NCBI RefSeq assembly: GCF_004345025.1
Contig: NZ_CP037745.1
Span: 186,001 to 250,000, forward strand
DNA length: 64,000 bases
Direction: 5' to 3'
Origin: Rheinheimera sp. D18
GTDB lineage: Bacteria > Pseudomonadota > Gammaproteobacteria > Enterobacterales > Alteromonadaceae
Below, piece after piece: positions 33,212 through 50,417 of this stretch; the first letter of the stretch is position 1; every line of letters starts with the position of its first letter. A program made the translations under genes and the position numbers. The notes beneath the pieces were generated by a model. That model ran no database searches. It was not told the DNA's origin and was given only the letters and a program-made list of their open reading frames with translations.

Positions 33212-33312
33212 TCACATAACAAATTACTAAATTGCGTTCCGGCCACAAAAAGCGTGGCCTCCACGGGACTGCCTACGCTGCGCTGCGGCAGCCCATTAGT
33301 AATGCGTTAGCA
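33212..33312 (+). repeat. attC of cassette 5 (group D)
   Basis: R'' TCACATAAC matches the cassette start TTATGTGA; R' is GTTAGCA at 33306. The group D core TTCCGGCCAC...GTGGCCTCCAC also occurs at 34829 and 36065. Confidence 0.88.
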
Positions 33313-33641
33313 GGTTTTCGGGTTTTAACGGTTTTAGTTTGTAGTTCTATTTTGGCTTTGCTCGTGTTTAGTTTTCTTAGCGGCAGCGCCAAAAGTTAAC
33401 GTGCGCCAGTTTGTTGGTTTGGTGCAATCTTTGTTGGCACAGCGGCGTTGTTCTTTGTGGCTTCGCTTAAATTGTTTTACAGGTTCCAGTTGGCGCACCG
33501 TTTCGCAGCTTACTGGTTTAGTTTTAATTAAAAGCAGTTTGCCATTGTTTAGGTTTGCCAGTGCGGCAAGCCGCGCAAGTTTGGTGCAGGCTGCTAACAA
33601 ACAAAGGCACGGCGACGCGTACCGCGCGCTTGCTTTGGGCG
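33307..33641 (+). mobile_element. Cassette 6: ORFless conserved cassette, copy 1
   Basis: 335-bp cassette of a family present eight times. It starts TTAGCAGGTTTTCGGG and ends at CTGCTAAC plus a 51-bp attC. Frames of 85-88 codons exist on both strands here but are broken or shifted in sister copies. A conserved GC hairpin (GCGGCAAGCCGC) lies just before attC. May encode an RNA or be a transcriptional element. Confidence 0.8.
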
Positions 33642-33647
33642 TTATAT
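33591..33647 (+). repeat. attC of cassette 6 (group E, short)
   Basis: R'' CTGCTAAC complements the cassette start TTAGCAG; R' is GTTATAT at 33641. The 51-bp group E core GGCACGGCGACGCGTACCGC recurs at 37697, 38610, 40241 and 50367. Confidence 0.88.
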
Positions 33648-33660
33648 TTTTTGAGTAGTC

Positions 33661-34077
33661 ATGAGCACGATAATTAGAACTGTATCAACGTCACTACTTT
33701 TATTTATGTTGCCGATAACCGCTTATCAGGCATACAAAATATTGCTTATTGGTAGCTGTGATCCAAAATTTGGCTGTTGGGGCACCTTCGAACTTAGCTT
33801 GTTAATTGGCTCAGCGTACGGTTTTATATCTTTAGTTGCACTAATCACGGTTCAGTTGGTATCCAAAGTAAACATGCTCAACGGACTAGCTGTGCTGGTA
33901 ACACTGCTACTCGGAGCAGCACATTGGTTTGTGCTTTCGATTGAGCTTTTAGATTCACTAACCATGCAAGTGCTATTTTGGCTGGCGTTGTCAGGTGTGT
34001 TTTATTCACTTGCAGCTGTAATTTCAAAAAAATATAACAAGCAAAGCCAGCCGACGCGTACCGCGCAGCTGCTTTGA
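33661..34077 (+). CDS. Cassette 7: hypothetical four-span membrane protein
   Basis: 138 residues with hydrophobic helices at about 8-26, 38-60, 68-90 and 100-122. No family recognised. The reading frame runs into its attC site, so the last 15 or so residues (YNKQSQPTRTAQLL) are encoded by recombination-site DNA. The ribosome site is weak. It follows an ORFless cassette, which might supply a promoter. Confidence 0.6.
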   Translation: MSTIIRTVSTSLLLFMLPITAYQAYKILLIGSCDPKFGCWGTFELSLLIGSAYGFISLVALITVQLVSKVNMLNGLAVLVTLLLGAAHWFVLSIELLDSLTMQVLFWLALSGVFYSLAAVISKKYNKQSQPTRTAQLL

Positions 34078-34086
34078 GCGTTATGC
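34032..34086 (+). repeat. attC of cassette 7 (short)
   Basis: R'' AATATAAC matches the cassette start TTATATT; R' is GTTATGC at 34080. 49 bp, overlapping the 3' end of the cassette gene. The core GCCAGCCGACGCGTACCGCGC resembles group E. Confidence 0.85.
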
Positions 34087-34401
34087 ATGAGTAAGACCGT
34101 GGCATCAATGGATATAGCTAGAAGAGTACAGATCGCAATGCTAGGCGAGGTTCCTCATACACTTCGCTTTCTTTACGTGTCGCTAATTGATAACAAGTTG
34201 AGTTTCCATGCGGTTTTTACTGATGATGCAACAGACGATCATCTTGAATCAGCAAGTTGCGTGTTAACGGAAATAATTGCTAGTTGTCCACGTAATGTAG
34301 TTCTCAATGAAATTATTGAACGAGATAGTAAAAAGCGATGGAAAATAGGTGGCGGTGACAATCTTATGTATTTAAGGTACGGAGAGTTAAGTCATGCATA
34401 A
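34087..34401 (+). CDS. Cassette 8: hypothetical protein
   Basis: 104 residues, not recognised, cytoplasmic by composition. It starts only 6 bp into the cassette without an evident ribosome site; an in-frame ATG at 34108 is an alternative. LRFLYVSLIDNKLSFHAVFTDDATDDHLE and EIIASCPRNVVLNEIIE suggest a small alpha-beta domain. The TAA stop is part of the R'' box. Confidence 0.6.
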   Translation: MSKTVASMDIARRVQIAMLGEVPHTLRFLYVSLIDNKLSFHAVFTDDATDDHLESASCVLTEIIASCPRNVVLNEIIERDSKKRWKIGGGDNLMYLRYGELSHA

Positions 34402-34479
34402 CAAGGCGCTGTTGTCGCCACTGACGTGGCTGGGACGGCTTACGCTGCGCTCCAGCCGCCCCAAAGCTTTGCGTTAAGT
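34395..34479 (+). repeat. attC of cassette 8 (group C)
   Basis: R'' TGCATAAC matches the cassette start TTATGCA; R' is GTTAAGT at 34473. Differs from the cassette 3 site at only a few bases. Confidence 0.9.
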
Positions 34480-34496
34480 GTCATGGAGAACATGAG

Positions 34497-34835
34497 ATGG
34501 ATATGAAAGTAATCGACGGTATTATTGTCGGCGCTTTTGGCGGCGCAGCAGCAGGAGTTGTTGTTTATGCTGTCCAATATTTTCATCAGAAAATAGTTTT
34601 CTTCGTTGAATGTCGTCGAGTCCATAAGTGGTTGGCGGAGCACACAACATTGGAACTAGGGAAAGAATTTAGGTCTACTAGAACAATTGCCAGTTGGAAT
34701 AACATTACAGAAGACCGCGCTCGTTTTATCTGTAGTGCCCACAAAAAAATATACCTTTCGACTGGCCCAAAAGAAGACATGTGGGGCATTCATTTAAAAC
34801 AGTTTCCGCGGAAAGATTTTGGCAATGACACTTAA
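34497..34835 (+). CDS. Cassette 9: hypothetical membrane-anchored protein
   Basis: 112 residues. A glycine/alanine-rich helix at about 8-30 (VGAFGGAAAGVVVYAVQYF) is followed by a soluble tail with W and R residues (TRTIASWNNITEDRARFICSAHKKIYLS). This tail has the look of a small DNA- or RNA-binding helical unit, but no family match is claimed. GGAG lies upstream of the ATG. Confidence 0.6.
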   Translation: MDMKVIDGIIVGAFGGAAAGVVVYAVQYFHQKIVFFVECRRVHKWLAEHTTLELGKEFRSTRTIASWNNITEDRARFICSAHKKIYLSTGPKEDMWGIHLKQFPRKDFGNDT

Positions 34836-34928
34836 CAAGTTGCTTAATTTCGTTCCGGCCACAAACAGCGTGGCCTCCACTGGACTGCCTACGCTGCGCT
34901 GCGGCAGCCAATTAGCAAAGCGTTCTGT
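34829..34928 (+). repeat. attC of cassette 9 (group D, altered R')
   Basis: R'' CACTTAAC matches the cassette start TTAAGTG. The downstream core is GTTCTGT at 34922, which departs from GTTRRRY at the first R position. Confidence 0.8.
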
Positions 34929-35237
34929 CTCGCCGGAAGCACGGTTAGATTCAAATGTAATTTAAAGGTTAATTGTTAATAACGAAATCGGATTGAAGAG
35001 TTTGTACTTTTATGCAACGCTTGAAGCGCTTGCGTCGCAGCTGATGCTAGCATGCAGTCGGACAAAGCCAGCCAGCTTCAAGTAAGGTTCAAACTGTCAC
35101 GTCCCCGGCGAGTCGTTCCCAAGAGAACGATCTATTCGCAAAACAACAAGGAAAGTTGCAGTATGTTGTTCCGAAACGAATTAACACAGAACAAGACGCT
35201 ACAACGGACGCGCCAAGCCGCGCCGTTGAGCTAAGCG
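34923..35237 (+). mobile_element. Cassette 10: no convincing gene
   Basis: 315 bp between an off-consensus GTTCTGT and a short attC whose R'' (ACAGAAC) pairs with it, so both ends share the same deviation and the cassette is self-consistent. Frames present are short: 30 codons from a TTG at 34993 and 60 codons from 35052. Neither has a ribosome site or recognisable features. Treat as gene-free or decayed. Confidence 0.55.
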
Positions 35238-35243
35238 TTATGC
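35186..35243 (+). repeat. attC of cassette 10
   Basis: R'' ACAGAAC complements GTTCTGT at the cassette start; R' is GTTATGC at 35237. 52 bp with CGGCGCGGCTTGGCGCG-type arms. Confidence 0.7.
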
Positions 35244-35253
35244 GTAAGTAATT

Positions 35254-35556
35254 ATGAAGCAAATCTATAAAATCACTTACTTAGCTACGAATAAGATTTA
35301 TATCGGCAAAGTTGCTTACGAAAGCTTTCGTTATTTTGGTAGCCCGGATATTGAAGTCGTAAATGAGGACTTCAGTAAATTGCCAATAGAACAACAAAAA
35401 GATTACACCGTTAGAAAGCAAATATTATGGGAATCTGATAGCTGCACAGATGCAGAGCTAGCTGAGAAAGAAATTGAATTCATAAGACTGTACCAGTCAA
35501 ACAACCCTGAGATTGGCTATAACAGGTGGCCTAAGTTTAATGTAGGTAGCGCATAA
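35254..35556 (+). CDS. Cassette 11: GIY-YIG-like nuclease domain protein
   Basis: 100 residues. The N-terminus IYKITYLATNKIYIGKV fits the GIY-YIG nuclease core, and AELAEKEIEFIRLYQSNNPEIGYNRW fits the C-terminal half with its metal-binding glutamate and the GYN motif. The middle arginine of the family may be the R in ESFRYFG. It is little more than the catalytic domain, with no DNA-binding extension. A possible role is DNA cleavage or repair; activity is not assured. Confidence 0.7.
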   Translation: MKQIYKITYLATNKIYIGKVAYESFRYFGSPDIEVVNEDFSKLPIEQQKDYTVRKQILWESDSCTDAELAEKEIEFIRLYQSNNPEIGYNRWPKFNVGSA

Positions 35557-35628
35557 CAAACGCCACCAAAACGCCGCTTCGCGGCTCGACTCGCAACAAG
35601 TTGCTCGCGTTTGTGGCGGGCGTTATGT
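35550..35628 (+). repeat. attC of cassette 11 (group G)
   Basis: R'' GCATAAC matches the cassette start TTATGC; R' is GTTATGT at 35622. Group G carries GCTCGACTCGCAACAAGTTG and GTTTGTGGCGGGCGTT and is the commonest group in the array. Confidence 0.9.
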
Positions 35629-35649
35629 TGTTAGAGAGAGTAGCGAAAT

Positions 35650-36054
35650 ATGCAACATTTGAGAGACTTAAAATATTGGTCGAAAGGATTAGCAATATTT
35701 CTATGGTCACTTTATTTGACAGTTTATTTATTTCTTTTTAAGCAAATTGAACCTGAAGAAACTAATAACTTAAAGACCTTCATAGGTCTTGCAATATCAG
35801 TTTTGATTGGTGGTACGTGGTGGAACTTTATAACCAACTTGTATAACACACCACGAAACTATTATGACCATAAGTATTTTTTTGCTGCATTATCGGCATT
35901 GCTAATTCTGGGAAGCGCAATTTGGGTTTTAAGCTTATTTCCGCTTTATAACGGCTCAGATAAAGAGCTTTATACAAAATTTACAGCGGCGTTTGTATTA
36001 GTGCATATGGCATGTATATTTATTGTGCCAACTTGGATGATGACTAGAAAATAA
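35650..36054 (+). CDS. Cassette 12: hypothetical four-span membrane protein
   Basis: 134 residues with hydrophobic segments at about 12-32, 43-62, 78-98 and 110-130. There is a polar loop before TM3 (NLYNTPRNYYDHKY). No family recognised. Its AT-rich codon use differs from the surrounding chromosome. GAG lies about 9 nt before the ATG. Confidence 0.6.
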   Translation: MQHLRDLKYWSKGLAIFLWSLYLTVYLFLFKQIEPEETNNLKTFIGLAISVLIGGTWWNFITNLYNTPRNYYDHKYFFAALSALLILGSAIWVLSLFPLYNGSDKELYTKFTAAFVLVHMACIFIVPTWMMTRK

Positions 36055-36064
36055 TATGTACAAC

Positions 36065-36164
36065 CACATAACAAGTTGCTTAATTTCGTTCCGGCCACGA
36101 AAAGCGTGGCCTCCACTGGACTGCCTACGCTGCGCTGCGGCAGCCAATTAGCAAAGCGTTAGCC
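36065..36164 (+). repeat. attC of cassette 12 (group D)
   Basis: R'' ACATAAC matches the cassette start TTATGT; R' is GTTAGCC at 36158. The core is almost identical to the cassette 9 site. Confidence 0.88.
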
Positions 36165-36183
36165 ATTCACAAGGAGAAATGCA

Positions 36184-36594
36184 ATGAAGAAGTTCATTTT
36201 ACATTCAGTGGTATTGATAACAGGAATTTCCATAGGCTATGCCCTTAATTACATTGGCGATAGTGGCTCTAAATTAAACAGTTTAGAGCAAAAGGATATT
36301 TCCTTTTATGTCTACGAAATAAAGTCTCAGCTATCTGAGGATTTTGAAAGTTTTAACGAAAGTGCCGCAAGGACATATCAGCTTTCAGATGGGAAAGAGG
36401 TTGATGTCAAATTTAGTACATCAATTGATGACAAGACCAAGATGCCAATCGTAAAGGTCTATGTTGACGATGAAGCAATCAATATTGACCGCAATGGAAC
36501 AGCTGTAATCGATAACGTCTTAGTAAGTCTGATAGATTTAGATGCTTACTCCAAAATAAATAAAGAGTACATCGCTGGTGCAAATAATGGCTAA
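36184..36594 (+). CDS. Cassette 13: hypothetical exported or anchored protein
   Basis: 136 residues with an N-terminal hydrophobic helix at about 4-22 that may be a signal or anchor (FILHSVVLITGISIGYAL). The rest is acidic and soluble (FEEDFESFNESAARTYQLSDGKEVDVKF-like composition) with no recognised motif. GGAGAAAT lies just before the ATG. The function is unknown. Confidence 0.65.
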   Translation: MKKFILHSVVLITGISIGYALNYIGDSGSKLNSLEQKDISFYVYEIKSQLSEDFESFNESAARTYQLSDGKEVDVKFSTSIDDKTKMPIVKVYVDDEAINIDRNGTAVIDNVLVSLIDLDAYSKINKEYIAGANNG

Positions 36595-36675
36595 CAATAC
36601 GCATCACTCGCGGCCTATGGCCGCTGGGATGCCAACCCGCTTCGCGGCTCGCCGCCCGTGTGCTTAGCGTTAGCA
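36588..36675 (+). repeat. attC of cassette 13 (group F variant)
   Basis: R'' TGGCTAAC complements the cassette start TTAGCCA; R' is GTTAGCA at 36669. The core is GCATCACTCGCGGCC...CCGTGTGCTTAGCGTT. Confidence 0.88.
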
Positions 36676-37006
36676 GGTGTTCGGGTTTTAACGGTTTTAG
36701 TCAGTGGTTTTGTTCGGGCATTGCTCGCGTTTGGCTTACCAAACGGCACTGGCAAATAGTCAAAGCTCGCCCGTTTGTGGGTTGGCTGCAAAAGGTTAGT
36801 AAGTTTGCGTTGTTCTTCGTGGCTTCGCTTAACAGTTTTACAGGTTCCGGTTGGCTCGCTGCATCGCAGCTGGCTGGTTTAGTTTTTAATTAATAGCAGC
36901 TTGCCGTTGTTCAGGTTTGCCAGTGCGGCAAGCCGCGCAAGTCCGGTGTAGGCTGCTAACAAGGCCAGTCAAGCGACGCCAAACAGCGTCGCGCTTGCTG
37001 GCAGCG
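36670..37006 (+). mobile_element. Cassette 14: ORFless conserved cassette, copy 2
   Basis: 337 bp. The body matches copy 1 in blocks (GTGGCTTCGCTTAACAGTTT, GGTTCCGGTTGGC, TTTGCCAGTGCGGCAAGCCG) but carries a different, 54-bp attC. The first 90 bp belong to a sub-type (GTTCGGGTTTTAACGG, TTTAGTCAGTGG) shared with copies 5-7. Confidence 0.8.
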
Positions 37007-37012
37007 TTATAT
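36953..37012 (+). repeat. attC of cassette 14
   Basis: R'' CTGCTAAC matches the cassette start TTAGCAG; R' is GTTATAT at 37006. The core GCGACGCCAAACAGCGTCGC forms a strong hairpin and is unlike the group E site on sister bodies. Confidence 0.88.
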
Positions 37013-37023
37013 GACTCGATAAG

Positions 37024-37332
37024 ATGAAATTACCAACAAAGAGTGAAGTCATTGTAGGGTTTATATTTATATCCGTTGGTGTTCTGACGCTGAGTTTCTT
37101 TCCAGCGTTTGTAACATCCGGCTGGTATGCGATACTTTTTGGTGTAGGCTTTTTTCTTTTTCCTGGGCCTCAACTCAGAGAAAAATACAAACAAACTGAA
37201 GAAACAAAAGAGCGTTGGCGGCAGAGTGCCAAAGTTGAAAGTTCAAAAAGCTTAAGTTGGTGGGCGTCTCCGTTTCCGTGGGCTTTATTCGTCTGTTTAG
37301 TAGTGGTGGTTGTTTTTGCAATCGTCACATAA
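37024..37332 (+). CDS. Cassette 15: hypothetical membrane protein
   Basis: 102 residues. Hydrophobic segments lie at about 8-27, 31-47 and 80-101, with a charged helical loop between the second and third (REKYKQTEETKERWRQSAK). No family recognised. The start lies 17 bp inside the cassette and the ribosome site is weak (ATAAG). It ends at the R'' box of its attC. Confidence 0.6.
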   Translation: MKLPTKSEVIVGFIFISVGVLTLSFFPAFVTSGWYAILFGVGFFLFPGPQLREKYKQTEETKERWRQSAKVESSKSLSWWASPFPWALFVCLVVVVVFAIVT

Positions 37333-37417
37333 CAAACAAATATTAACGCCAGCAAAAAGCGCTGGCTGCGACGTCAACCCGCTGCGCGGCTTTCCGCGCT
37401 AAATTTGGGCGTTAGCA
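37326..37417 (+). repeat. attC of cassette 15 (group A)
   Basis: R'' ACATAAC, one mismatch to the complement of the cassette start TTATAT; R' is GTTAGCA at 37411. The core is essentially that of the cassette 1 site. Confidence 0.88.
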
Positions 37418-37747
37418 GGTTTTCGAGTGTTAATGGCTTTAGTTTATCGTTTTGTTGCGGCTTTGCTCGTGTTTCGTTTTCTATAGCAGCAAAACCAAGC
37501 CATTAAAGTTCGCCAGTTTGTTGGTTTGGTGCAATCTTTGTTGGCACAGTGGCGTTGTTCTTTGTGGCTTCGCTTTACATATTTTTAAGTTCCGGTTAGT
37601 GCGTTGTTTCGCAGTTAACTGGTTTAGTTTTAATTAAAAGCAGTCTGCCGTTGTTTAGGTTTGCCAGTGCGGCAAGCCGCGCAAGTATGGTGCAGGCTGC
37701 TAACAAACAAAGGCACGGCGACGCGTACCGCGCGCTTGCTTTGGGCG
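37412..37747 (+). mobile_element. Cassette 16: ORFless conserved cassette, copy 3
   Basis: 336 bp with group E attC. The region after CGTTTTC differs from copy 1 (TATAGCAGCAAAACCAAGCC in place of TTAGCGGCAGCGCC), a variant shared only with copy 8. The rest follows copies 1 and 4 closely. Confidence 0.8.
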
Positions 37748-37753
37748 TTATGT
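37697..37753 (+). repeat. attC of cassette 16 (group E)
   Basis: R'' CTGCTAAC; R' is GTTATGT at 37747. Identical core to the cassette 6 site. Confidence 0.88.
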
Positions 37754-37767
37754 GCTGGGAGGCATTT

Positions 37768-38211
37768 TTGCGCAACAAAATTAAATATTTTACTTTTGCA
37801 TTCTTTATTTTATCTGCATTATTCCAATCCACAGTACACGGCAAGGAAGAGCGCATGTCAGGGCCAGCGCAAAACGGTGTTCTTATCTACTCTGGCGATT
37901 TGAGCAACCTATCAGAGTTTTATGAAAAACTTTTTGGTATGCGAGTTGTTCGCAAAACCAATGATTTTATTAGCTTAGAAACGAATGGCTTCAACTTAAT
38001 CATTCATGTGCCACCATTCGATATTCCGACTAAAGCCTTCAGCTCCATTAAGCTTTTCCTCACGGTAGATGATATGGCTATGTCGCGTGAGGAGGCTGTT
38101 AAATTAGGTGGTCAAGCATTTGAGGGCGAGTGGAGCAATCCAATATTTAAAGTATCAAACATCGCAGATCGTGATGGTAACCACATTCAACTTCGTCAAT
38201 TTAATAAATGA
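37768..38211 (+). CDS. Cassette 17: exported VOC (glyoxalase-like) protein, copy 1
   Basis: 147 residues from a TTG start with GGGAGG upstream; the paralogue at 49528 has ATG at the same codon. A signal peptide (ALFQSTVHG, cleavage before KEE) precedes a single VOC domain: NGVLIYSGDLSNLSEFYEKLFGMRVV, LETNGFNLIIHVP and ADRDGNHIQLRQF. The HIQL motif supplies the usual metal-side glutamine/histidine region. A periplasmic VOC protein is unusual. An internal ATG after the signal would give a cytoplasmic form. Confidence 0.8.
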   Translation: MRNKIKYFTFAFFILSALFQSTVHGKEERMSGPAQNGVLIYSGDLSNLSEFYEKLFGMRVVRKTNDFISLETNGFNLIIHVPPFDIPTKAFSSIKLFLTVDDMAMSREEAVKLGGQAFEGEWSNPIFKVSNIADRDGNHIQLRQFNK

Positions 38212-38247
38212 TAAAAAGTACGTTATTGGCAATAGTAATGGTTAAAG

Positions 38248-38332
38248 CACATAACAATGCGCTGTTGTCGCCGCTATCGCGGCTGGGACGGCTTACGCTG
38301 CGCTTCAGCCGCCCCAAAGCTTTGCGTTAGCA
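38248..38332 (+). repeat. attC of cassette 17 (group C)
   Basis: R'' CACATAAC matches the cassette start TTATGTG; R' is GTTAGCA at 38326. Same group as the site of its paralogue at 50002. Confidence 0.9.
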
Positions 38333-38660
38333 GGTTTCCGGTGTTATCGGTTTTAGTTTATCGTTTTGTTGCGGCATTGCTCACGTTTGGTTTTCTTAGC
38401 GGCAGCGCCAAAAGTTAACGTGCGCCAGTTTGTTGGTTTGGTGCAATCTTTGTTGGCACAATGGCGTTGCTCTTTGTGGCTTCGCTTAAACAGTTTTACA
38501 AGTTCCAGTTGGCGCGTTGTTTCGCAGTTAACTGGCTTAGTTTTAATTAAAAGCAGCCTGCCATTGTTTAGGTTTGCTAGTGCGGCAAGCCGCGCAAGTT
38601 TGGTGCAGGCTGCTAACAAACAAAGGCACGGCGACGCGTACCGCGCGCATGCTTTGGGCG
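38327..38660 (+). mobile_element. Cassette 18: ORFless conserved cassette, copy 4
   Basis: 334 bp, the closest relative of copy 1 (shares TTAGCGGCAGCGCCAAAAGT and TTGGTGCAATCTTTGTTGGC). Group E attC. It sits directly downstream of the VOC cassette, as copy 8 does after the second VOC cassette. Confidence 0.8.
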
Positions 38661-38666
38661 TTAGCA
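38610..38666 (+). repeat. attC of cassette 18 (group E)
   Basis: R'' CTGCTAAC; R' is GTTAGCA at 38660. One base differs from the cassette 6 core. Confidence 0.88.
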
Positions 38667-38688
38667 ATCATAGGGAATGCGAAATATT

Positions 38689-39948
38689 ATGGTAAAAGTG
38701 GCGGCAGTATGGGTGGCTCTATTGCTATCTTCGTGCGGGTATGCGCAAGACGATACGACACGTTGGCAAGAGGATGTTGACGTTTACGCAAAAAAACTGA
38801 TCGAAGGGCATATAGATCCTTTTCACACACTTTCACAAGAACGCTTTGATGATGAGATCGTAAGGATTAGCGAAAACATACCTCATAAAACAGAAAACGA
38901 AATACTGATAGAGCTCATGAGGCTAACCCGGAAAATTAACGATGGGCACACCTCTTTTCCGCTATGGGGGCTGGAGTATGACAGCTTCCCTCTAGAGCTG
39001 AAATTATTTGGCAATGACTTATATGTACTAAGCACAACAAGCCAACATAAAGACCTTCTGGGATCGAAGCTTGTCTCCATCAACGGCGTGCCTTCTCTCG
39101 ATGTTATCCGTCTCTTGTCAGAAATAACGCCTTTCTCTGAAAACGAATTCTCCACTGCCGTAAGATCTGCTAGCTATTTCCCCAATGCTGCCATTCTAAG
39201 TGGGCTTGGAATAGTTGAGAATGAAGACGATGTAAAATTCGTATTCGATGTTCAAGGAGAAAAAAGGGAGACTAACCTTGAATCCAGCCGTTCACCAAAG
39301 CTTAATGCTCGAATATCACACTTCAACGACGCAATATTCTCTGCTGATGAGAAGGTGGATAATAATCTTTGGTATGGATCTTCATCAGATAATAAAACCG
39401 TATACGTTAAATTTAGAAGATACACATCCATTCCCAAAATGGAACATTTTTCGAGGGAGCTGCTTGGCTTTATTAACAAAAACAAATCTGAGAACCTCGT
39501 TATCGACCTTAGAGACAATTATGGTGGAGATTTCTTCGTAGGCCTGAAATTAGCACAACAGCTGGTACTCGCAGATACCATCAACTGGAAATCGGGAGTT
39601 TACACACTAATCGACAATGTTACATTTTCCGCAGCAATGAGCAATGCGGCTCAATTTTCACAAATTTTAAACAGCAAGCTGGTGGGATCACCAACGGGTG
39701 CCAGACCCTCTGGGTATCAAGACATGGGGCAGTTTACACTTCCGAATTCTGGACTTGAAGTCACCTTTTCGAAGCGGCTGTATAGCTTCAAAGACACTCA
39801 ACGAGACGCGCTGTACCCTGATGTCCACATCGAAACATCAATTGAAGATTACAAAAATGCATACGACAGGCAGTTGAGGTGGGTGTTGAGCGATATAAAA
39901 GATAGAGGTAGCCATGATAACAAAACATTGCAGCGGACAAGCCGCTGA
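38689..39948 (+). CDS. Cassette 19: S41-family peptidase-like lipoprotein
   Basis: 419 residues from the ATG at 38689; an ATG 12 bp earlier is possible. The lipoprotein signal has lipobox LSSC. The fold is that of tail-specific (C-terminal processing) proteases: KINDGHTSFPL, LVIDLRDNYGGD and the nucleophile region NVTFSAAMSNAAQF, followed by LVGSPTGARPSGYQD. A probable envelope serine peptidase. The frame ends inside the attC site (KTLQRTSR). This is the largest cassette in the array. Confidence 0.8.
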   Translation: MVKVAAVWVALLLSSCGYAQDDTTRWQEDVDVYAKKLIEGHIDPFHTLSQERFDDEIVRISENIPHKTENEILIELMRLTRKINDGHTSFPLWGLEYDSFPLELKLFGNDLYVLSTTSQHKDLLGSKLVSINGVPSLDVIRLLSEITPFSENEFSTAVRSASYFPNAAILSGLGIVENEDDVKFVFDVQGEKRETNLESSRSPKLNARISHFNDAIFSADEKVDNNLWYGSSSDNKTVYVKFRRYTSIPKMEHFSRELLGFINKNKSENLVIDLRDNYGGDFFVGLKLAQQLVLADTINWKSGVYTLIDNVTFSAAMSNAAQFSQILNSKLVGSPTGARPSGYQDMGQFTLPNSGLEVTFSKRLYSFKDTQRDALYPDVHIETSIEDYKNAYDRQLRWVLSDIKDRGSHDNKTLQRTSR

Positions 39949-39962
39949 ATGCGACGTTAGCA
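39915..39962 (+). repeat. attC of cassette 19 (short, divergent)
   Basis: TGATAAC then CATTGCAGCGG/CCGCTGAATG arms and R' GTTAGCA at 39956, about 42 bp. R'' does not fully complement the cassette start TTAGCAA. Confidence 0.65.
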
Positions 39963-41263: not shown

Positions 41264-41265
41264 TT

Positions 41266-43504: not shown

Positions 43505-43509
43505 ATTTG

Positions 43510-43591
43510 CATATAACAATCGCCATCAAAAGCGCGCCCGTTGGGCGCTCGACTCGCAACAAGTTGCTCGCGTTTGTGGCGGGCGTTAGAG
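43510..43591 (+). repeat. attC of cassette 26 (group G)
   Basis: R'' GCATATAAC complements the cassette start TTATATGC; R' is GTTAGAG at 43585. Confidence 0.9.
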
Positions 43592-43603
43592 CTAAGGAAA
43601 GTC

Positions 43604-44041: not shown

Positions 44042-44120
44042 GCTCTAACAATCGCCAGCACAACGCGCCTGCGGCGCTCGACTCGCAACAAGTTGCTCGC
44101 GTGTGTGGCGGGCGTTAGGC
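44042..44120 (+). repeat. attC of cassette 27 (group G)
   Basis: R'' AGCTCTAAC complements the cassette start TTAGAGCT; R' is GTTAGGC at 44114. Confidence 0.9.
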
Positions 44121-44142
44121 TTAATGGAGTATTTAGAAAGTA

Positions 44143-44442
44143 ATGGATTTATTTCTGGCTAATGTAATCACCGTATTTTTCTTTGTTTCAGCGTATTTGC
44201 TGGTGAAAAAGTGTCGCTTAATCAGGCAGCGTACTTCATATCTTTCCGCATTTTCTGTTGCTGCTGGACTTGCTGTAGCGCTCTTATTGGTAAGCTTCTG
44301 TTTCGCTTTAATTTTAGGTGCGGCGCTACCTGATATTTATGTAAAAACCTTTGCTTATAAAGCTGTATTTGTTTGGCTTATTCTGGCAATAAACTGGTTT
44401 TGGCAAATGGTTAAGCAGCAATCGGGTAGTAATTATGCCTAA
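44143..44442 (+). CDS. Cassette 28: hypothetical three-span membrane protein
   Basis: 99 residues with hydrophobic helices at about 2-21, 38-60 and 70-90, joined by a short basic loop (KKCRLIRQR). No family recognised. It has weak upstream ribosome-site features (GGAG 18 nt before). It ends in its attC R'' box. Confidence 0.6.
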   Translation: MDLFLANVITVFFFVSAYLLVKKCRLIRQRTSYLSAFSVAAGLAVALLLVSFCFALILGAALPDIYVKTFAYKAVFVWLILAINWFWQMVKQQSGSNYA

Positions 44443-44517
44443 CAAGCGCCATCAAAAACGCGCCCCTTGGGCGCTCGACTCGCAACAAGTTGCTCGCGTT
44501 TGTGGCAGGCGTTAGCA
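44436..44517 (+). repeat. attC of cassette 28 (group G)
   Basis: R'' GCCTAAC complements the cassette start TTAGGC; R' is GTTAGCA at 44511. Confidence 0.9.
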
Positions 44518-44863
44518 GGCATTCGGGGTTTTAACAGTTTTAGTCAGTGGTTTTGTTCGGGCATTGCTCGCGCTTGGTTTTCTTAGCAGCAAAGCCAAAA
44601 GGTTTAGTTCGCCAGTTTGTGGGTTCACTGCAAACGGTTGTGGCGGTAGCGTTGTTCTTCCGGGCTTCGCTTAACAGTTTTACAGGTTCCGGTTGGCTCG
44701 CCGTATCGCAGCTGGCCGGTGTAGCTTTAAATTTGCACAGTGGTGCACTTGTTCAGCTTCGCCAGTGCGGCAGTGCCGCGCGGGTCTTAACAAGGCGCAT
44801 CACTCGCGGCCTGCGTCCGCTGGGATGCCAACCGCTACGCGGTCGTCACCCGTGTGCTTTGCG
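44512..44863 (+). mobile_element. Cassette 29: ORFless conserved cassette, copy 7
   Basis: 352 bp, most like copy 6 (TTTGCACAGTGGTGCA, GCGGCAGTGCCGC). A deletion of about 14 bp relative to copy 6 removed the CTGCTAAC R'' box, leaving GTCTTAAC. The cassette start TTAGCAG therefore no longer complements its attC. Confidence 0.78.
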
Positions 44864-44869
44864 TTAGCA
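44784..44869 (+). repeat. attC of cassette 29 (group F, damaged R'')
   Basis: The core is group F; R' is GTTAGCA at 44863. R'' reads GTCTTAAC in place of CTGCTAAC. Confidence 0.8.
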
Positions 44870-44891
44870 TTCTCCTATTAAGAGGATCGTG

Positions 44892-45692
44892 ATGAACACT
44901 AAACCTCAAATATTATTTTTGTCTCATGGCGGCGGGCCGATGCCACTTCTAGGTGATGTTGGGCATAAAGAAATGATTGATTGCTTGCAAAAAATCTCAT
45001 CTATTTTGCGTAAGCCATCAGCCATTTTAGTGGTAAGTGCGCACTGGGAAGAAAAAATCCCAACCATTACTTCGGGCGCCAACCCTTCCCTTATTTACGA
45101 TTACTATGGATTTCCAGAAAAGTCTTATAGTATTACCTATCCTTGTCAGGGAGAGCCATCACTGGCGGAGCAGACCTATAAGCGGCTGGAGCATTCAGGT
45201 ATTTCCGCAAAACTTGATGAGCAGCGCGGTTTTGACCACGGTCTATTTATTCCTCTGAAAATCATGTACCCGGAGGCAGATATTCCGTGCATTCAGCTCT
45301 CTCTTGTCGATAATCTCAGTCCAGCAGCTCATGTCGGGATAGGGCGAGCAATCCAAGACTTGGAGTATGAAAATTTACTTATAATTGGTTCTGGTTTCTC
45401 CTTTCATAATATGAAAGCATTTTTTTCATCTGAAACCAGTGAATCAAAAACTTTAAATGAATCTTTTGAAGCGTGGCTGCTAGAGACTTGCACTAACAGT
45501 AGTATTACTGAAGAAGAAAGAGAACAAAGATTTATCCAATGGGAAAAAGCCCCCGGTGCTCGTTACTGTCACCCAAGAGAAGAGCATTTATTGCCGTTGC
45601 ACGTTTGCTATGGAATAGCTAATAGTGTTTGCACTAAGTCGTTTGAGCTAAAGATTCTAAATAAAAAATCGAGCATGTACATCTGGTCATAA
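44892..45692 (+). CDS. Cassette 30: 4,5-DOPA extradiol dioxygenase-like (YgiD family)
   Basis: 266 residues; the ATG at 44892 follows GAGG by 6 nt. Class III extradiol ring-cleavage dioxygenase fold with metal ligands expected in LSHGGGP, VVSAHWEE, RGFDHGLFIPL and YCHPREEHLLPLH. Family members open catechol rings such as DOPA. The size and all four histidine regions are intact. This is one of few cassette genes with a clear metabolic fold. Confidence 0.88.
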   Translation: MNTKPQILFLSHGGGPMPLLGDVGHKEMIDCLQKISSILRKPSAILVVSAHWEEKIPTITSGANPSLIYDYYGFPEKSYSITYPCQGEPSLAEQTYKRLEHSGISAKLDEQRGFDHGLFIPLKIMYPEADIPCIQLSLVDNLSPAAHVGIGRAIQDLEYENLLIIGSGFSFHNMKAFFSSETSESKTLNESFEAWLLETCTNSSITEEEREQRFIQWEKAPGARYCHPREEHLLPLHVCYGIANSVCTKSFELKILNKKSSMYIWS

Positions 45693-45693
45693 A

Positions 45694-45755
45694 ATGCTAA
45701 CAAACGCGTCAATTAGGACGCTCGCAAGCTCTCGCCTATTACCCGGGCGTTAGGC
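45694..45755 (+). repeat. attC of cassette 30 (short)
   Basis: R'' AATGCTAAC complements the cassette start TTAGCATT; R' is GTTAGGC at 45749. 56 bp with CGTCAATTAGGACG-type arms. Confidence 0.88.
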
Positions 45756-45773
45756 ATATAAAAAGGTTTCTGA

Positions 45774-46613
45774 GTGTTATTCGAAAAATCATCAAAAAAT
45801 AAGAAAAAAAGGTATGAACTCGTATTTGATTTTTTTGCTTACGGGTATATTGCTCTTATTTTTATTATATTGTTCTCTTTAGCTTTAACAGCAATAGCTT
45901 CGATAACTGGTGATAAAATTAAAGGTATAGATGTTTTAAATTCTTTAGCGCAAATAGCAACTGCGGCTGCATTCATTTTTGCCGTATACCAATACAGAAA
46001 AAATGGGGATAAAGAGCGTCAAAATATTATTGCGGCTGAAGCAAAATTACTCACAACAAGAATGGCAACGGTAGCTGACAAATCTAAAGAAAACACAAAA
46101 TACACAATTGAAGATATCAACGATTTCATAGCTTTAATGTCGAACTTAGGTACTGATTTTATGGCTCTTTATGAGGCTTTGACTGATGATATTCATAAAG
46201 CGATGGTTAGGATGAGGTGGCAAGATATGCACTACAATCATCTTTCTAAAGCCTTACAAGTATTCACCATCGATCAGCTTTTTGAAAACTTGAGTCTCGA
46301 AAAAGACTTTAGGGGGTATTCTTTTTATAATTCACGTTTTGATCATTCAATCACTTCAAAGCATAAAATTTTTCAAGAGTATTTTTTCTCATTAAAAGTG
46401 TTAAATGAGATGAGTATAGGTGAGGAAATCACGCCAAAATTTGAAGGTTTATTATTATTTGAAACATATTTCTTTGACGCTAAAGAAACAAATGATCTTA
46501 TGTATGGCTTACTTTCGCAATTAGATTTAAGAGCTACAGCTCCTTTACTTGCAGCCATTAAAGAAAAGCAGAAAGTGTATAATATGCCTAACAAGCCAAT
46601 TAAGCGGGACTAA
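45774..46613 (+). CDS. Cassette 31: hypothetical two-span membrane protein
   Basis: 279 residues from a GTG start with AAAGG upstream. Two membrane helices at about 22-45 and 58-75 are followed by a long cytoplasmic, mostly helical domain (MATVADKSKENTKYTIEDINDFIALM, then an alpha-helical run to the end). No family recognised. The layout resembles two-TM effectors of some defence systems, but this is only an analogy. The frame ends inside attC, giving the tail NMPNKPIKRD. Confidence 0.65.
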   Translation: MLFEKSSKNKKKRYELVFDFFAYGYIALIFIILFSLALTAIASITGDKIKGIDVLNSLAQIATAAAFIFAVYQYRKNGDKERQNIIAAEAKLLTTRMATVADKSKENTKYTIEDINDFIALMSNLGTDFMALYEALTDDIHKAMVRMRWQDMHYNHLSKALQVFTIDQLFENLSLEKDFRGYSFYNSRFDHSITSKHKIFQEYFFSLKVLNEMSIGEEITPKFEGLLLFETYFFDAKETNDLMYGLLSQLDLRATAPLLAAIKEKQKVYNMPNKPIKRD

Positions 46614-46686
46614 AAACAGTTTGCTCGGTTTCGCTTCGCTACACATTTTAGCAAACAATTTTTAGCCCCTTATTGGGGCGTTAGGC
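46585..46686 (+). repeat. attC of cassette 31 (group H)
   Basis: R'' ATGCCTAAC complements the cassette start TTAGGCAT; R' is GTTAGGC at 46680. Long inner arms, related to the cassette 4 site. Confidence 0.88.
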
Positions 46687-46725
46687 GTCCTCCGTGCTAA
46701 CCATATAAAGATATTCGAGTACACC

Positions 46726-47325
46726 ATGATCTTTGTCGAACCTGTCACTCTCACTGCGCGCGGCTTAAGGCTCGTGCCGCTCGAACTCAATCATGAAGCC
46801 GGCCTGCGATCCGCCGCCGCGGATGGAGAGTTGTGGAACCTACGCATCACATCGGTGCCAGCCCCCGATGAGACACGCGGATACATTGATACTGCCCTGC
46901 AAGCCAGAGAGGAGGGCCATCGTATGGCATTCGCTGTTATCGAAGAGGCTAGCGGTGCGGTGCTTGGATCCACGAGCTACCACGATATTCTGCCTGCCGT
47001 AAAACGAGTGGAAATTGGCTACACTTGGTATGCAAAGCGTGTTCAGCGCACCCATGTCAATACCACCTGCAAGCTATTGCTCTTGACACACGCTTTCGAC
47101 ACGTTGGGCTGTAACGTGGTCGGCTGGCGAACCGACAACTTCAACTACGTCAGCCAGCGTGCGATCGAGCGTCTAGGCGCGAAGAAGGACGGTGTGATAC
47201 GGGGCAACGTACTTCGCCGCGACGGCACCATTCGGGACACGGTGATGTACAGTCTGCACAAGGGCGAATGGCCTGAGGTTCGCGCACAACTCAATTATTT
47301 GTTAAGCCGGCCAGGCGTTCAATGA
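46726..47325 (+). CDS. Cassette 32: GNAT acetyltransferase of high-GC origin
   Basis: 199 residues, RimJ/RimL-like: LTARGLRLVPLELNHEAGLRSAA, VLGSTSYHDILPAVKRVEIGYTWY, and the acetyl-CoA and C-terminal strand region FNYVSQRAIERLGAKKDGVIRGN. Base composition is strikingly GC-rich against all neighbouring cassettes and the chromosome, so the gene came recently from a high-GC donor. The acetyl acceptor is unknown. Confidence 0.88.
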   Translation: MIFVEPVTLTARGLRLVPLELNHEAGLRSAAADGELWNLRITSVPAPDETRGYIDTALQAREEGHRMAFAVIEEASGAVLGSTSYHDILPAVKRVEIGYTWYAKRVQRTHVNTTCKLLLLTHAFDTLGCNVVGWRTDNFNYVSQRAIERLGAKKDGVIRGNVLRRDGTIRDTVMYSLHKGEWPEVRAQLNYLLSRPGVQ

Positions 47326-47352
47326 GGGAGATTATGCGCTTGGTTGGCAAAA

Positions 47353-47467
47353 CGCCTAACAAGGCGCTCAAGACGGACGCAATAGACTCCGCGCCGGTTG
47401 CGCATGGCTTCGCCATTTTATGCACAACCGGTGCTCCGCTATTGCGCCGCTTAGCTTGGCGTTAGGC
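47353..47467 (+). repeat. attC of cassette 32 (long)
   Basis: R'' ACGCCTAAC complements the cassette start TTAGGCGT; R' is GTTAGGC at 47461. The 109-bp site has GCGCAATAG/CTATTGCGC and CCGGTTGCGCAT/ATGCACAACCGG-type arms and is unique here. Confidence 0.88.
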
Positions 47468-47482
47468 ATTTTGGAGAGTTCA

Positions 47483-47941
47483 TTGGCAGTTTATGAAGTT
47501 AAGTGGAAAGAATTAGCAAAGTATATGACGCGTCAATTGTCTATTACTTTGGCGGTTGGTTTTGTCGTTCTAATGCTTATCAGGTACGTATCTACGGGTT
47601 TTAGCATCGAAACAACATTTGAGCACATACATTTGAATCACATACCTTTCGTATTTTTAGGTATTTTCCTTTTTAGTCTCACGTTTGCTTTCTTAATAAG
47701 TGCCTTATTGCGATGCGCTCGAGTTACCATTAGTAATGAAACTATTTCGGGTAGAAACTACTGGCTTTTTAAAAAAGAATTCAAATTGGAAGATATTGAA
47801 AAATCTTTTCTTTTTTCGAGTAATGGCATGCCTGTTGTAGTAGTTGATGCTGGTAAGAACGGGGATATTTATATACCTATTCATATTGAGAATTCTGAAG
47901 AGCTATTTTCTATCTTGGATAAATATCAGAAAAGTGCCTAA
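47483..47941 (+). CDS. Cassette 33: hypothetical two-span membrane protein
   Basis: 152 residues from a TTG start with TTGGAGAG 6 nt upstream; codons further upstream lie in the preceding attC. Two membrane helices at about 20-37 and 55-77 are followed by a soluble PH-like or DUF-type tail (RVTISNETISGRNYWLFKKEFKLEDIEKSFLF, VVVVDAGKNGDIYIPIHI). The tail pattern recalls bacterial PH domains but is not a firm match. Confidence 0.65.
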   Translation: MAVYEVKWKELAKYMTRQLSITLAVGFVVLMLIRYVSTGFSIETTFEHIHLNHIPFVFLGIFLFSLTFAFLISALLRCARVTISNETISGRNYWLFKKEFKLEDIEKSFLFSSNGMPVVVVDAGKNGDIYIPIHIENSEELFSILDKYQKSA

Positions 47942-48016
47942 CAATCGCCATCAAAAACGCGCCCGTTGGGCGCTCGACTCGCAACAAGTTGCTCGCGTTT
48001 GTGGCGGGCGTTATAA
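47935..48016 (+). repeat. attC of cassette 33 (group G)
   Basis: R'' TGCCTAAC complements the cassette start TTAGGCA; R' is GTTATAA at 48010. Confidence 0.9.
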
Positions 48017-48375
48017 ATGTTTAAAGGTTAAACGTCAGCTTCGGATAGATTGCGGTATTTACTTTTGAATTATGTGCTAGCTTTCAAAAGCCCGTAGCGT
48101 TGTTCCGGTGCCGTTAGGAAGTTTTGTAAAAACCCACTTCGCATTGTGGGTTGCTAATAAGAAAGGTCGTTGCCATCATCGGCAGCAGTAATTTAAACGG
48201 GTGCAACGGAATAGCATTTGTATTCTTAGTAAATTCATTTCGTGCATTTATAACAAATCGCAGCAGGTTCGCACGCTTCGCGTGCTGGACAGTTTGTAAG
48301 TCGCGTCTTTGCGGTTTTGCTACGCAAAAGTAATCCGCAAAGCCACAACTTACAAACTGCCCCCTGTGCTCAGCG
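48011..48375 (+). mobile_element. Cassette 34: no clear gene, very long attC
   Basis: 365 bp. The body before attC is only about 235 bp. A 60-codon frame from a TTG at 48151 runs into attC but has no recognisable domain. A hairpin AACCCAC/GTGGGTT lies at about 48128-48149. Unrelated in sequence to the eight-copy ORFless family. Confidence 0.6.
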
Positions 48376-48381
48376 TTATAT
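48245..48381 (+). repeat. attC of cassette 34 (131 bp)
   Basis: R'' CATTTATAAC complements the cassette start TTATAAATG; R' is GTTATAT at 48375. Long arms CAGTTTGTAAGTCG.../...CAACTTACAAACTG make it the longest attC in the array. Confidence 0.88.
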
Positions 48382-48398
48382 GACTCAGGAAGAACCTA

Positions 48399-49412
48399 GT
48401 GCTTAAATTCTTAGCAGGTGTTTTGTTTATACCTTATGTAACTTTTGCTGACACGACAGTAAGCCCAGATAGGCTGGAAATTATCAGTAACCTGAAGCAA
48501 GAAATTGCTAAACAATATGTCCTCGAGGACAAAAACCCTGCGATATTAGATTCATTAAAAATATTATCTTCATCTGAAGAGCTACAGCTTGTTTCGGGTG
48601 ATAAAGAATTTGCAGAAGTAATTGATAGTAATCTAAAAAAGTTTGATAAGCACTTTAGCTTTTCATGGAAAGCTAATGAAAAAACAGGCACCAATCAATC
48701 GTCAGAAAGTTATTGGGAAAAACTTGAGCGTAAAAACTCTGGATTTAGTAAAGTTGAAATACTGGCAGGTAATGTTGGTTATATTGATTTTTGGGGTTTT
48801 GATAAAGTAAACAGTAATTCAACAGAGCGTGTAGCCAATGTAATGGCGATGGTTTCTGATGCTAGCGCTGTTATTTTCGATCTCAGGAATAACGGTGGCG
48901 GACATCCAGAGATGTCACAGCTAATTAGTAGTTATCTATTTAAAAATAGGACTCATCTGAACAGTATTTATTGGCGTTATTCTGGTGAAGTTGATGAGTT
49001 TTGGACCTTCAGAAAGGTTAAAGGAAAAAAGCTTGTCGATGTTCCCATATACATTTTAACAAGCAACAAGACGTTTTCCGCCGCTGAAGATTTTGCTTAT
49101 AGTCTACAGAGCTTAAAACGAGCTGTAGTTGTTGGTGAAGTTACTGGCGGCGGTGCTCACCCTATGCGCTTTTTAGACTTTGGCAATGGTTTTGTTGCAG
49201 GTATCCCATACGGAAAAGCAATCAATCCGGTAACTAAAACAAATTGGGAATGGGTTGGTGTAAAACCTGACTTAATTTCATCGAAAGAAGACGCTTTTAA
49301 TCTCGCATATTTCACGGTGCTGGAAAACTTAGTAAAAGCAGAATTGAGCTTTGCCGCGAAGAATGAAATAGAGAATAAAGTAGAAGAGTTGGCTATGGCT
49401 CTGCGAGATTGA
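48399..49412 (+). CDS. Cassette 35: S41-family peptidase-like exported protein
   Basis: 337 residues from a GTG start with CAGGAAG upstream. It has a signal peptide (to about residue 18), an N-terminal helical domain, and the S41/IRBP-type catalytic core: VGYIDFWGFDKV, AVIFDLRNNGGGHPEM, the nucleophile region NKTFSAAEDFAYSL and VVVGEVTGGGAHP. A probable periplasmic serine peptidase. It is a distant relative of the cassette 19 product; both lie beside a VOC cassette. Confidence 0.82.
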   Translation: MLKFLAGVLFIPYVTFADTTVSPDRLEIISNLKQEIAKQYVLEDKNPAILDSLKILSSSEELQLVSGDKEFAEVIDSNLKKFDKHFSFSWKANEKTGTNQSSESYWEKLERKNSGFSKVEILAGNVGYIDFWGFDKVNSNSTERVANVMAMVSDASAVIFDLRNNGGGHPEMSQLISSYLFKNRTHLNSIYWRYSGEVDEFWTFRKVKGKKLVDVPIYILTSNKTFSAAEDFAYSLQSLKRAVVVGEVTGGGAHPMRFLDFGNGFVAGIPYGKAINPVTKTNWEWVGVKPDLISSKEDAFNLAYFTVLENLVKAELSFAAKNEIENKVEELAMALRD

Positions 49413-49431
49413 GCGATGAGGTTTAAACCGT

Positions 49432-49513
49432 CATATAACAATCGCCATCAAAAACGCGCCCGTTGGGCGCTCGACTCGCAACAAGTTGCTCGCGTTTGTG
49501 GCGGGCGTTATGT
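49432..49513 (+). repeat. attC of cassette 35 (group G)
   Basis: R'' TCATATAAC complements the cassette start TTATATGA; R' is GTTATGT at 49507. Confidence 0.9.
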
Positions 49514-49527
49514 GCTTGGAGGCATCT

Positions 49528-49971
49528 ATGCGCAACAAGTTTAGTTATTTTGCTTTTGTATTATTTGTTTTATCTGCATTATTTCAATCCACAGCACACG
49601 GCAAGGAAAAGCACATGTCAGGGCCAGCGCAAAATGGTGTTCTTATCTACTCTGGCGATTTGAGCAACTTATCAGAGTTTTATGAAAAACTTTTCGGGAT
49701 GCGAGTTGTTCGTAAGACCAATGATTTTATTAGTTTGGAAACGAATGGTTTCAATTTAATCATTCATGTTCCACCATTCGATATGCCGACCAAAGCGTTC
49801 AGTCCTATTAAACTTTTCCTTACGGTAGAAGATATGGCCATGTCGAGAGAAGAAGCTGTTAAATTAGGTGGCCAATCATTCAAGGGTGAGTGGAGTAATC
49901 CAATATTTAAAGTGTCAAACATCGCTGATCGTGATGGTAACCATATCCAACTCCGTCAATTCAGCAAGTAA
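49528..49971 (+). CDS. Cassette 36: exported VOC (glyoxalase-like) protein, copy 2
   Basis: 147 residues; the ATG at 49528 follows GGAGG by 5 nt. By eye it differs from the cassette 17 protein at about 16 positions, ten of them in the signal peptide, so the VOC domain is held almost constant. Motifs are SEFYEKLFGMRVVRK, NGFNLIIHVPPFD and ADRDGNHIQLRQF. It is followed by an ORFless cassette, as in the first copy. Substrate unknown; export is predicted from a typical n-h-c signal. Confidence 0.82.
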   Translation: MRNKFSYFAFVLFVLSALFQSTAHGKEKHMSGPAQNGVLIYSGDLSNLSEFYEKLFGMRVVRKTNDFISLETNGFNLIIHVPPFDMPTKAFSPIKLFLTVEDMAMSREEAVKLGGQSFKGEWSNPIFKVSNIADRDGNHIQLRQFSK

Positions 49972-50001
49972 AGGCATATTAAATTACGACAATGGTTAAG
50001 G

Positions 50002-50086
50002 CACATAACAATACGCTGTTGTCGCCACTATCATGGCTGGGACGGCTTACGCTGCGCTCCAGCCGCCCCAAAGCTTTGCGTTAGCA
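50002..50086 (+). repeat. attC of cassette 36 (group C)
   Basis: R'' CACATAAC matches the cassette start TTATGTG; R' is GTTAGCA at 50080. Confidence 0.9.
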
Positions 50087-50417
50087 GGTTTTCGGGTTTT
50101 AACGGATTCAGTTTGTAGTTTTATTTTGGCTTTGCTCGTGTTTCGTTTTCTATAGCAGCAAAACCAAGCCATTAAAGTACGCCAGTTTGTGGGTTTAGTG
50201 CAATCTTTGTTGGCACAGTGACGTTGTTCTTTGTGGCTTCGTTTAAACAGTTTTACAAGTTCCGGTTGGCGCGCTGTTTCGCAGTTAACTGGTTTAGTTT
50301 TAATTAAAGCAGTCTGACGTTGTTAAGGTTTGCTAGTGCGGCAAGCCGCGCAAGTTTTGGTGTAGGCTGCTAACAAACAAAGGCACGGCGACGCTTACCG
50401 CGCGCTTGCTTTGGGCG
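50081..50417 (+). mobile_element. Cassette 37: ORFless conserved cassette, copy 8
   Basis: 337 bp. It shares TATAGCAGCAAAACCAAGCC with copy 3 and has several single-base indels relative to it (AATTAAAGCAG for AATTAAAAGCAG; TTGTTAAGG for TTGTTTAGG), which shift any reading frame. Group E attC. No long frame on either strand. Confidence 0.8.

Follow-up and report, generated by a model that had tools for sequence, protein, structure and literature searches.

Gene-less cassettes, which lack an open reading frame (ORF), are an accepted subtype of integron cassette in two studies (PMC11014356, PMC6557892), and their role has been open since at least 2006. In Vibrio arrays, Boucher 2006 (PMC1382264) found a tendency of the non-coding cassettes to be paralogous, to be conserved from one species to another and not to occur outside the group, inferred purifying selection for them and considered selfishness, a promoter or an RNA as options. 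Here we analysed a window of 64,000 nucleotides from Rheinheimera sp. D18 (contig NZ_CP037745.1, positions 186,001 to 250,000), which lies in a 3.31 Mb single-contig genome and contains an integron. The original prediction for this window, made from the letters alone, was that eight cassettes of the array (6, 14, 16, 18, 20, 25, 29 and 37) share long conserved blocks, keep no reading frame on either strand and have a selected role. Comparison of these cassettes with their relatives indicates that the eight belong to a gene-less, multi-copy family of integron cassettes that is native to the Rheinheimera group.

All eight cassettes (c6 to c37) are present on the + strand between core site and attC as predicted, and the numbering agrees with ours (Table 1). 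Each copy spans 334-367 bp, beginning at a G^TTAGCAGG core site and ending with its own attC, and all are bounded by G^TTRRRY core sites together with a 3' attC that has a matching R'' box, so that 8 of the 41 cassettes delimited in the array belong to one gene-less family. Mean column identity across the eight copies is 81%, while pairwise identity is 75-90% among the seven with a complete body (c29, in which the last bases are missing, was left out). The long conserved blocks are also readily seen, GTGGCTTCGCTTAA for instance being exact in five of the eight copies (c6, c14, c18, c20 and c25) and differing by one change in c16 and c37 and by two in c29. When the final 60 bases of every cassette are disregarded, the elements have a G+C content of 0.47, which is like that of the flanking chromosome (0.466) and unlike that of the other cassettes (0.403). 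That the eight copies are not adjacent to one another is uninformative (~0.2 by arithmetic), and copies do lie side by side in other genomes. When c6 was used as a DNA query against its own genome, the other copies were recovered at E-values of 1e-168 to 5e-44. Outside the window, three further copies lie at ~1.98 Mb, where no integrase match at E<=1e-60 comes within 1.2 Mb. In that region (L048, 1972000-1990000 of the genome) an ORF at 10192-10983, encoding a nucleotidyltransferase that is AadA-type-like by eye, stands directly before two element copies.

Profile searches divide the family into three groups, the subfamilies A (GTTAGCAGG...), B (GTTAGCAGC...) and C (GTTAGCCGG...). The c6 query matched 26 of 60 relatives, all in one genus and some in the attC only, and a B-type query comprising the body and the first attC bases matched 21 of the 31 genus genomes, each in the body. 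In the loci taken, which are a subset of the places matched by the genome searches, we found 88 distinct places and used 77 full copies, having dropped 11 places of which four contain N and the rest, c29 among them, are partial. Where the relatives with the element are named, they are mostly Rheinheimera, Alishewanella and Arsukibacterium. Copies beyond the genus occur in Shewanella profunda and Vreelandella titanicae, and 394 sampled genomes of the order, with two to four candidates scored per genome, yielded one real B-type copy in another genus (G383). The remaining hits in other genera were short, each an isolated run of 25-43 bases in which inspection by eye revealed neither a core site nor an attC, a sample of 369 genomes of the class (four candidates scored per genome) matched only in the Rheinheimera sp. 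D18 genome itself, and the phage records held no match to c20. In the data searched, the family appears essentially confined to the Rheinheimera/Alishewanella/Arsukibacterium group; the original prediction, in pointing to other Alteromonadales integrons as the place to search, was right in spirit.

The expectation that no frame is kept on either strand holds across the 77 copies despite ORFs of up to 106 codons in single copies. When ORFs of at least 25 codons were compared, no stop column was common to more than 21 copies on the + strand or more than 13 on the - strand. The mechanical ORFs of single copies reach 106 codons in c29 (+), 104 in c18 (-), and 85 (+) and 88 (-) in c6, and several copies hold unshared ORFs of more than 50 codons, where Boucher 2006 took as criterion no ORF above 150 bp and no codon-like variation. 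The prediction had named a significant codon-substitution signal with a conserved frame as refuting it; no such signal appeared when three blocks free of indels, of 37, 40 and 50 columns, were each examined in six frames (18 tests; z -1.6 to 1.5). Many indels are not multiples of three, including an 8-base difference between subfamilies. With no conserved frame, the family does not carry the gene expected of an integron gene cassette. On the codon and shared-frame tests we rejected both an intact and a decayed protein gene. Among other candidates, there was no tRNA or tmRNA in 29000-58000, and an antisense relation to intI, attI or other cassettes was rejected in that none of 76 13-mers, each present in at least four copies, recurs elsewhere in the window on either strand.

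We next turn to the pattern of change within the body. In the alignment, 55 of 292 sites never change, and the mean is 4.85 parsimony changes per site. Conserved sites are found along the whole body and, besides the core sites, are densest at consensus positions 141-160, 181-220 and 241-280. Because recombination distorts tree-based change counts, we compared the A copies with the B/C copies, which as groups are 64% identical to each other. The numbers of changes per site correlate between the 58 A and 19 B/C copies (Spearman 0.435 over 271 sites, a value not reached by any of 261 circular shifts), and 43 sites, compared with 21.4 expected, never change in either group. As a control we used the gene-less cassette 34 (48011-48375), which matched five other genus genomes at its attC end, plus one 63-base match in the body; by this comparison its body is without conservation comparable to that of the family. 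Neither cassette 34 nor cassette 10 (34922-35237), which is also gene-less and had no plasmid match, was hit by the family searches of their own genome. Comparison between the copies shows a body that is under site-specific purifying constraint without a conserved protein frame. Since the bodies are gene-less and the site-specific constraint is common to the subfamilies, a selected non-coding role is likely for the family. The selected role in the original prediction, which may be that of a small RNA, a promoter or a parasite, is supported to this extent.

Three candidate hairpins on the sense strand, HP1, HP2 and HP3, fall within the body (Table 1). The 30-sequence alignment (A2) in which the inner stem of HP3 is invariant comes from thinning at 90% identity, which left 31 sequences of which L084 was not entered. 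Separate consensus folds of the A and B/C copies agree on HP1 and HP2 on the + strand, with an overlap of pair probabilities of 12.26 against 2.65 (sd 2.32) in the null. The agreement was first tested by single-column permutation with 25 nulls and then repeated with blocks of 3, 6 and 10 columns, in which nulls as high were seen in 0 of 100, 2 of 90 and 1 of 90 cases, respectively. On the - strand, the overlap was 0.89 and 46 of 100 nulls were at least as high. Over the hairpins, 92.5% of 690 cells are paired, a value that none of 500 shuffles reached and that dropped to 30-42% when the pairing was slid, and the covariation score was reached by one of 500 shuffles. In HP1, 96.7% of cells are paired; HP2 has a minimum free energy of -12.7, one of its pairs occurring as AU, GU or GC and others as UG, CG or UA, and is followed by the T-rich tail in all 77 copies; and the HP3 motif GCGGCA(0-2 bases)GCCGC is found in 75 of 77. 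Local folding z-scores on the + strand were -2.3, -2.4 and -1.8 for HP1, HP2 and HP3, compared with -1.4, -1.2 and -0.4 on the - strand. When 53 A-type copies were folded with RNAalifold, the energy z-scores were -5.7 (+) and -3.4 (-) relative to single-column shuffles and the covariation term did not exceed the null; we gave these energies no weight because such shuffles break neighbour effects. Taken together, there is moderate support for conserved RNA hairpins HP1 and HP2 formed by the sense strand, HP2 with a U-rich tail, and for HP3 with its invariant inner stem.

Several results weigh against this structure, and against a transcript that would end behind HP2. Phylogeny-aware covariation gave no Watson-Crick pair, its sole pair at E<0.05 being short-range and mostly C/A, and when columns were evolved independently on the tree the paired fractions of HP1, HP2 and HP3 were unexceptional (p 0.43-0.86). 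The hairpins were picked after inspection of the data, and recombination among copies complicates tree-based counts. The number of stems is just mildly raised (156 compared with 118, sd 20), the two best folds have 14 pairs in common, a number reached by 6 of 100 nulls, and two of the five shuffle measures were ordinary (94 of 500 shuffles as high for pairs changed on both sides, and 247 of 500 for additional pair types). The folding energy of the whole body, computed for 16 of the 77 copies with terminal repeats excluded, was likewise ordinary, with mean z of -0.31 (+) and -1.11 (-), and in B/C the local z of HP3 is just -0.4. The constraint extends beyond the HP2 tail, which is ill-suited to a transcript ending there, and HP2 had no match in a simple terminator scan whose loops were limited to 3-8. 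An Rfam scan of 29000-58000 to E 5 returned three chance-level matches, none in a copy. Two related candidates were set aside, namely a stable RNA over the whole body, which the folding energy does not support, and a known RNA family, for which there was no Rfam match. The same simple scan counted 51 terminator-like sites in 30501-50500 compared with 24.2 in shuffles; by position many are attC or HP3 stems and none is HP2. On balance, a sense RNA structure is likely but not proven.

Copies of the family also occur far from their usual hosts. In the plasmid collection (PLSDB), 17 records have copies, one of which, from Proteus, is 4.09 Mb long, and 15 of the 17 show 91.2% identity to c20 across 86% of c20. 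In the three class 1 integron records that we opened, the order is catB, element copy, hypothetical ORF and dfrA1, and the arrays end in qacE-delta-1 and sul1. The hypothetical ORF after the element in these records has 90 codons (WP_023622806.1; L015 5362-5634). Of 5,426 E. coli genomes, one holds the plasmid-type copy. In three genomes (G018, G026 and G029) a copy begins ~220 bp from the integrase gene and is the first cassette, at a distance as in the window, while on a S. xiamenensis plasmid the element lies ~300 bp from the integrase; on that plasmid (L016 5001-5293) the attC is interrupted right after GCTGCTAA, and a group II intron reverse transcriptase gene is next. In another genome (G020), four copies stand head to tail. 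The distribution of copies is near-random with respect to host, requiring 57 host changes on the tree compared with a minimum of 25 and 61.6 (sd 1.7) when shuffled, and the 10 full copies of the Rheinheimera sp. D18 genome alone require six. A-type copies recombine, as seen in a Phi of 0.242 against 0.335 (sd 0.017) with none of 2000 permutations as extreme (53 copies, 69 sites). In addition, three stretches of gene cassettes common with the genome that has the most similar intI (G021) are 99.4-99.8% identical, whereas the synonymous difference of intI is 17.5%, which indicates that recent cassette transfer occurs here. Comparison shows that copies of the gene-less cassette pass from species to species and insert at attI. 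They behave as a mobile population with free exchange, a behaviour that would fit a parasite too.

We tentatively propose, as the most likely of the readings though still short of an even chance, that the family carries on its sense strand a non-coding RNA or leader with a regulatory role in the array, and that the integrase spreads it. The cassette would act as a regulatory RNA module: transcripts running along the array would read through it, and its RNA, once folded, would serve as a small RNA or as the leader or punctuation of array transcripts and would alter the expression of a neighbouring cassette or of a trans target. Several scattered copies could in this way set expression blocks along the array far from the single Pc promoter. 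A broader version is unlikely, though worth stating: that genus-specific RNA cassette families are mobile non-coding RNA genes whose product or U-rich-tailed hairpin punctuates transcription, divides arrays into separately expressed blocks and has been carried unnoticed into clinical class 1 integrons.

Among the alternatives, a promoter cassette is the most probable and has a direct precedent. A sense promoter in the body would transcribe promoterless downstream cassettes, as in gene-less cassettes of Vibrio and Treponema; PMC11014356 reports sense promoter activity for most of 29 gene-less Vibrio cassettes, which in silico prediction had missed, and PMC6557892 reports promoter activity for gene-less Treponema cassettes. 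The sigma-70-like site with the best average, TTTAAT at consensus 216, is in array orientation ~70 nt before attC and ranks first in 21 of 77 copies, and the opened class 1 records have a copy upstream of dfrA1. Scored over the alignment, however, this site does not exceed chance (p 0.375), and it lacks a clear -35 hexamer; the best scores of the copies (6.40) are not above those of shuffles (6.39), and no sigma-70 site at a conserved position was above chance on either strand. Inspection by eye for motifs of other sigma factors supports no claim. A simple scan of 30501-50500 found 20 promoter-like sites, fewer than the 35.8 in shuffles. Moreover, the constraint is not limited to a length typical of a promoter but takes in all 290 nt, and the elements are not AT-rich, AT-richness being offered in PMC11014356 as a possible source of promoters in Vibrio cassettes. 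Because prediction failed for the Vibrio gene-less cassettes, the negative sigma-70 scan leaves this alternative standing, and we regard a promoter as rather improbable but as having a real chance of being right.

Somewhat less probable is a selfish or hitchhiking cassette that spreads by good recombination or duplication without host benefit, its conserved body aiding its own mobility. The same option was raised for Vibrio in Boucher 2006 (PMC1382264), and the high copy number, the head-to-tail copies, the first position at attI and the proximity to the integrase on the Shewanella plasmid, the near-random host distribution and the recombination among copies would all fit it. Against this, the element encodes no protein and hence no recombinase, cassette 34, gene-less as well, has not spread, the constraint on the body is found far from attC, and no result here indicates raised excision or insertion. 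That the copies are neutral repeats kept alike by gene conversion alone, without function, is very unlikely: the strong recombination and the moderate identity within the array are in its favour, but it fails to explain the same unchanged sites in A and B/C at their level of divergence, or invariant sites a few bases from variable ones. Least credible of all, and close to dismissed, is that the copies descend from one protein gene by decay. Single copies do keep open frames, and Blanco 2024 (PMC11014356) mentions degenerate genes among some Vibrio gene-less cassettes; nevertheless, there is neither a common frame nor a codon signal in the indel-free blocks, the many frame-breaking indels speak against a gene, the constraint pattern persists across subfamilies, unlike in a dead gene, and an intact homologous ORF with codon-like substitution was seen in none of the 77 copies.

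Table 1. Gene-less cassette copies, candidate RNA features and the integron platform (positions in the window)
Feature	Position	Strand	Remarks
Gene-less cassette copy c6 (body and attC)	33307..33641	+	335 bp
Gene-less cassette copy c14	36670..37006	+	337 bp
Gene-less cassette copy c16	37412..37747	+	336 bp
Gene-less cassette copy c18	38327..38660	+	334 bp
Gene-less cassette copy c20	39957..40291	+	335 bp
Gene-less cassette copy c25	42768..43134	+	367 bp; longer attC type
Gene-less cassette copy c29	44512..44863	+	352 bp; longer attC type; body without last bases before attC
Gene-less cassette copy c37	50081..50417	+	337 bp
Candidate hairpin HP1 (RGCG...CGCT), consensus 137-160, example in c20	40092..40115	+	pairs common to A and B/C folds, products up to 0.76
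Candidate hairpin HP2 (CCRGYY...RRCYGG), consensus 178-208, example in c20	40135..40165	+	seven pairs in both folds, products 0.82-0.99
Candidate terminator-like T-rich tail behind HP2, example in c20	40166..40180	+	8-11 T per 15 aligned columns
Candidate hairpin HP3 (TTGC-CAGT-GCGGC-AA-GCCGC-GCAA), example in c20	40205..40228	+	inner stem invariant in 30-sequence alignment
Integron integrase gene (intI)	29580..30554	-	ORF; Phage_integrase and SAM-like N-terminal domain
intI upstream region with attI	30555..30772	.	first core site; inferred extent
First crossover of array	30772/30773		first core site
Cassette array, 41 cassettes delimited	30773..52923	+	core sites and ORFs

The platform that carries the copies has an integron integrase adjoining the array, and 29 of the 31 genus genomes have an intI match at E<=1e-60. 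Cassette numbering was set by core sites, the one preceding cassette 10 being atypical, and the cassette counts refer to the 41 cassettes delimited up to 52923. Of the 33 cassettes outside the family, 31 have an ORF of at least 87 codons, the exceptions being cassettes 10 and 34 (longest 60 codons). A glyoxalase-like cassette is present in two copies that are 87% identical (37748-38326 and 49508-50080), both of which adjoin element copies, in the orders c16-17-c18 and 36-c37, and a 99.7% identical relative of the second lies directly after an element copy in G021 (L049). Among the cassettes scanned, the array also holds two S41 peptidase cassettes (38677-39948, 48399-49412) and three GNAT acetyltransferase cassettes (42144-42701, 43541-44041, 46726-47325), and cassette 40 (51643-52325) encodes a Phd/YefM-ParE toxin-antitoxin pair.

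Given 77 full-length variants from three subfamilies, a map of the constrained sites and a set of defined hairpins, the question of what such cassettes do becomes testable by mutation and reporter assays. It also has a practical side, since one copy is flanked by resistance cassettes in plasmids of Pseudomonas, Vibrio, Phytobacter and E. coli, where the gene table of PLSDB, which is incomplete, lists no gene, and an effect of this plasmid copy on neighbouring cassettes, if any, may be overlooked. No paper on this family was found in the open-licence literature searched. As far as could be seen, the phenomenon of conserved non-coding cassette families is already known, while this family, the constraint test and the hairpins are new.

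Finally, we compared the family with the closest systems, in each case with the portions of the papers available. It resembles the promoter cassettes of Vibrio and Treponema (PMC11014356, PMC6557892) in having an attC and no gene; unlike in our family, where no promoter signal exceeds chance, promoter activity was measured for those cassettes, and none is described there as a conserved multi-copy family. With sRNA-Xcc1 of Xanthomonas cassettes (PMC12444791, PMC6557892) it has in common a cassette-borne non-coding RNA, here a candidate, and spread between species. The Xanthomonas RNA, however, lies with symE and is oriented against the array, whereas the RNA signal described here is in array orientation, without a gene and without an Rfam match. 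The nearest likeness is to the Vibrio families of Boucher 2006 (PMC1382264), which are also gene-less, multi-copy and group-confined, with six copies in DAT722 and 45 and 34 in two V. vulnificus strains, and which have homologues more than 80% identical in sister species, as the present family has matches in 21 of the 31 genus genomes. The two appear to differ in sequence and belong to different bacterial groups. Beyond what the accessible text gives for the Vibrio families, the Rheinheimera family adds a site-by-site test of constraint, candidate sense-strand hairpins and copies carried in mobile class 1 integrons.

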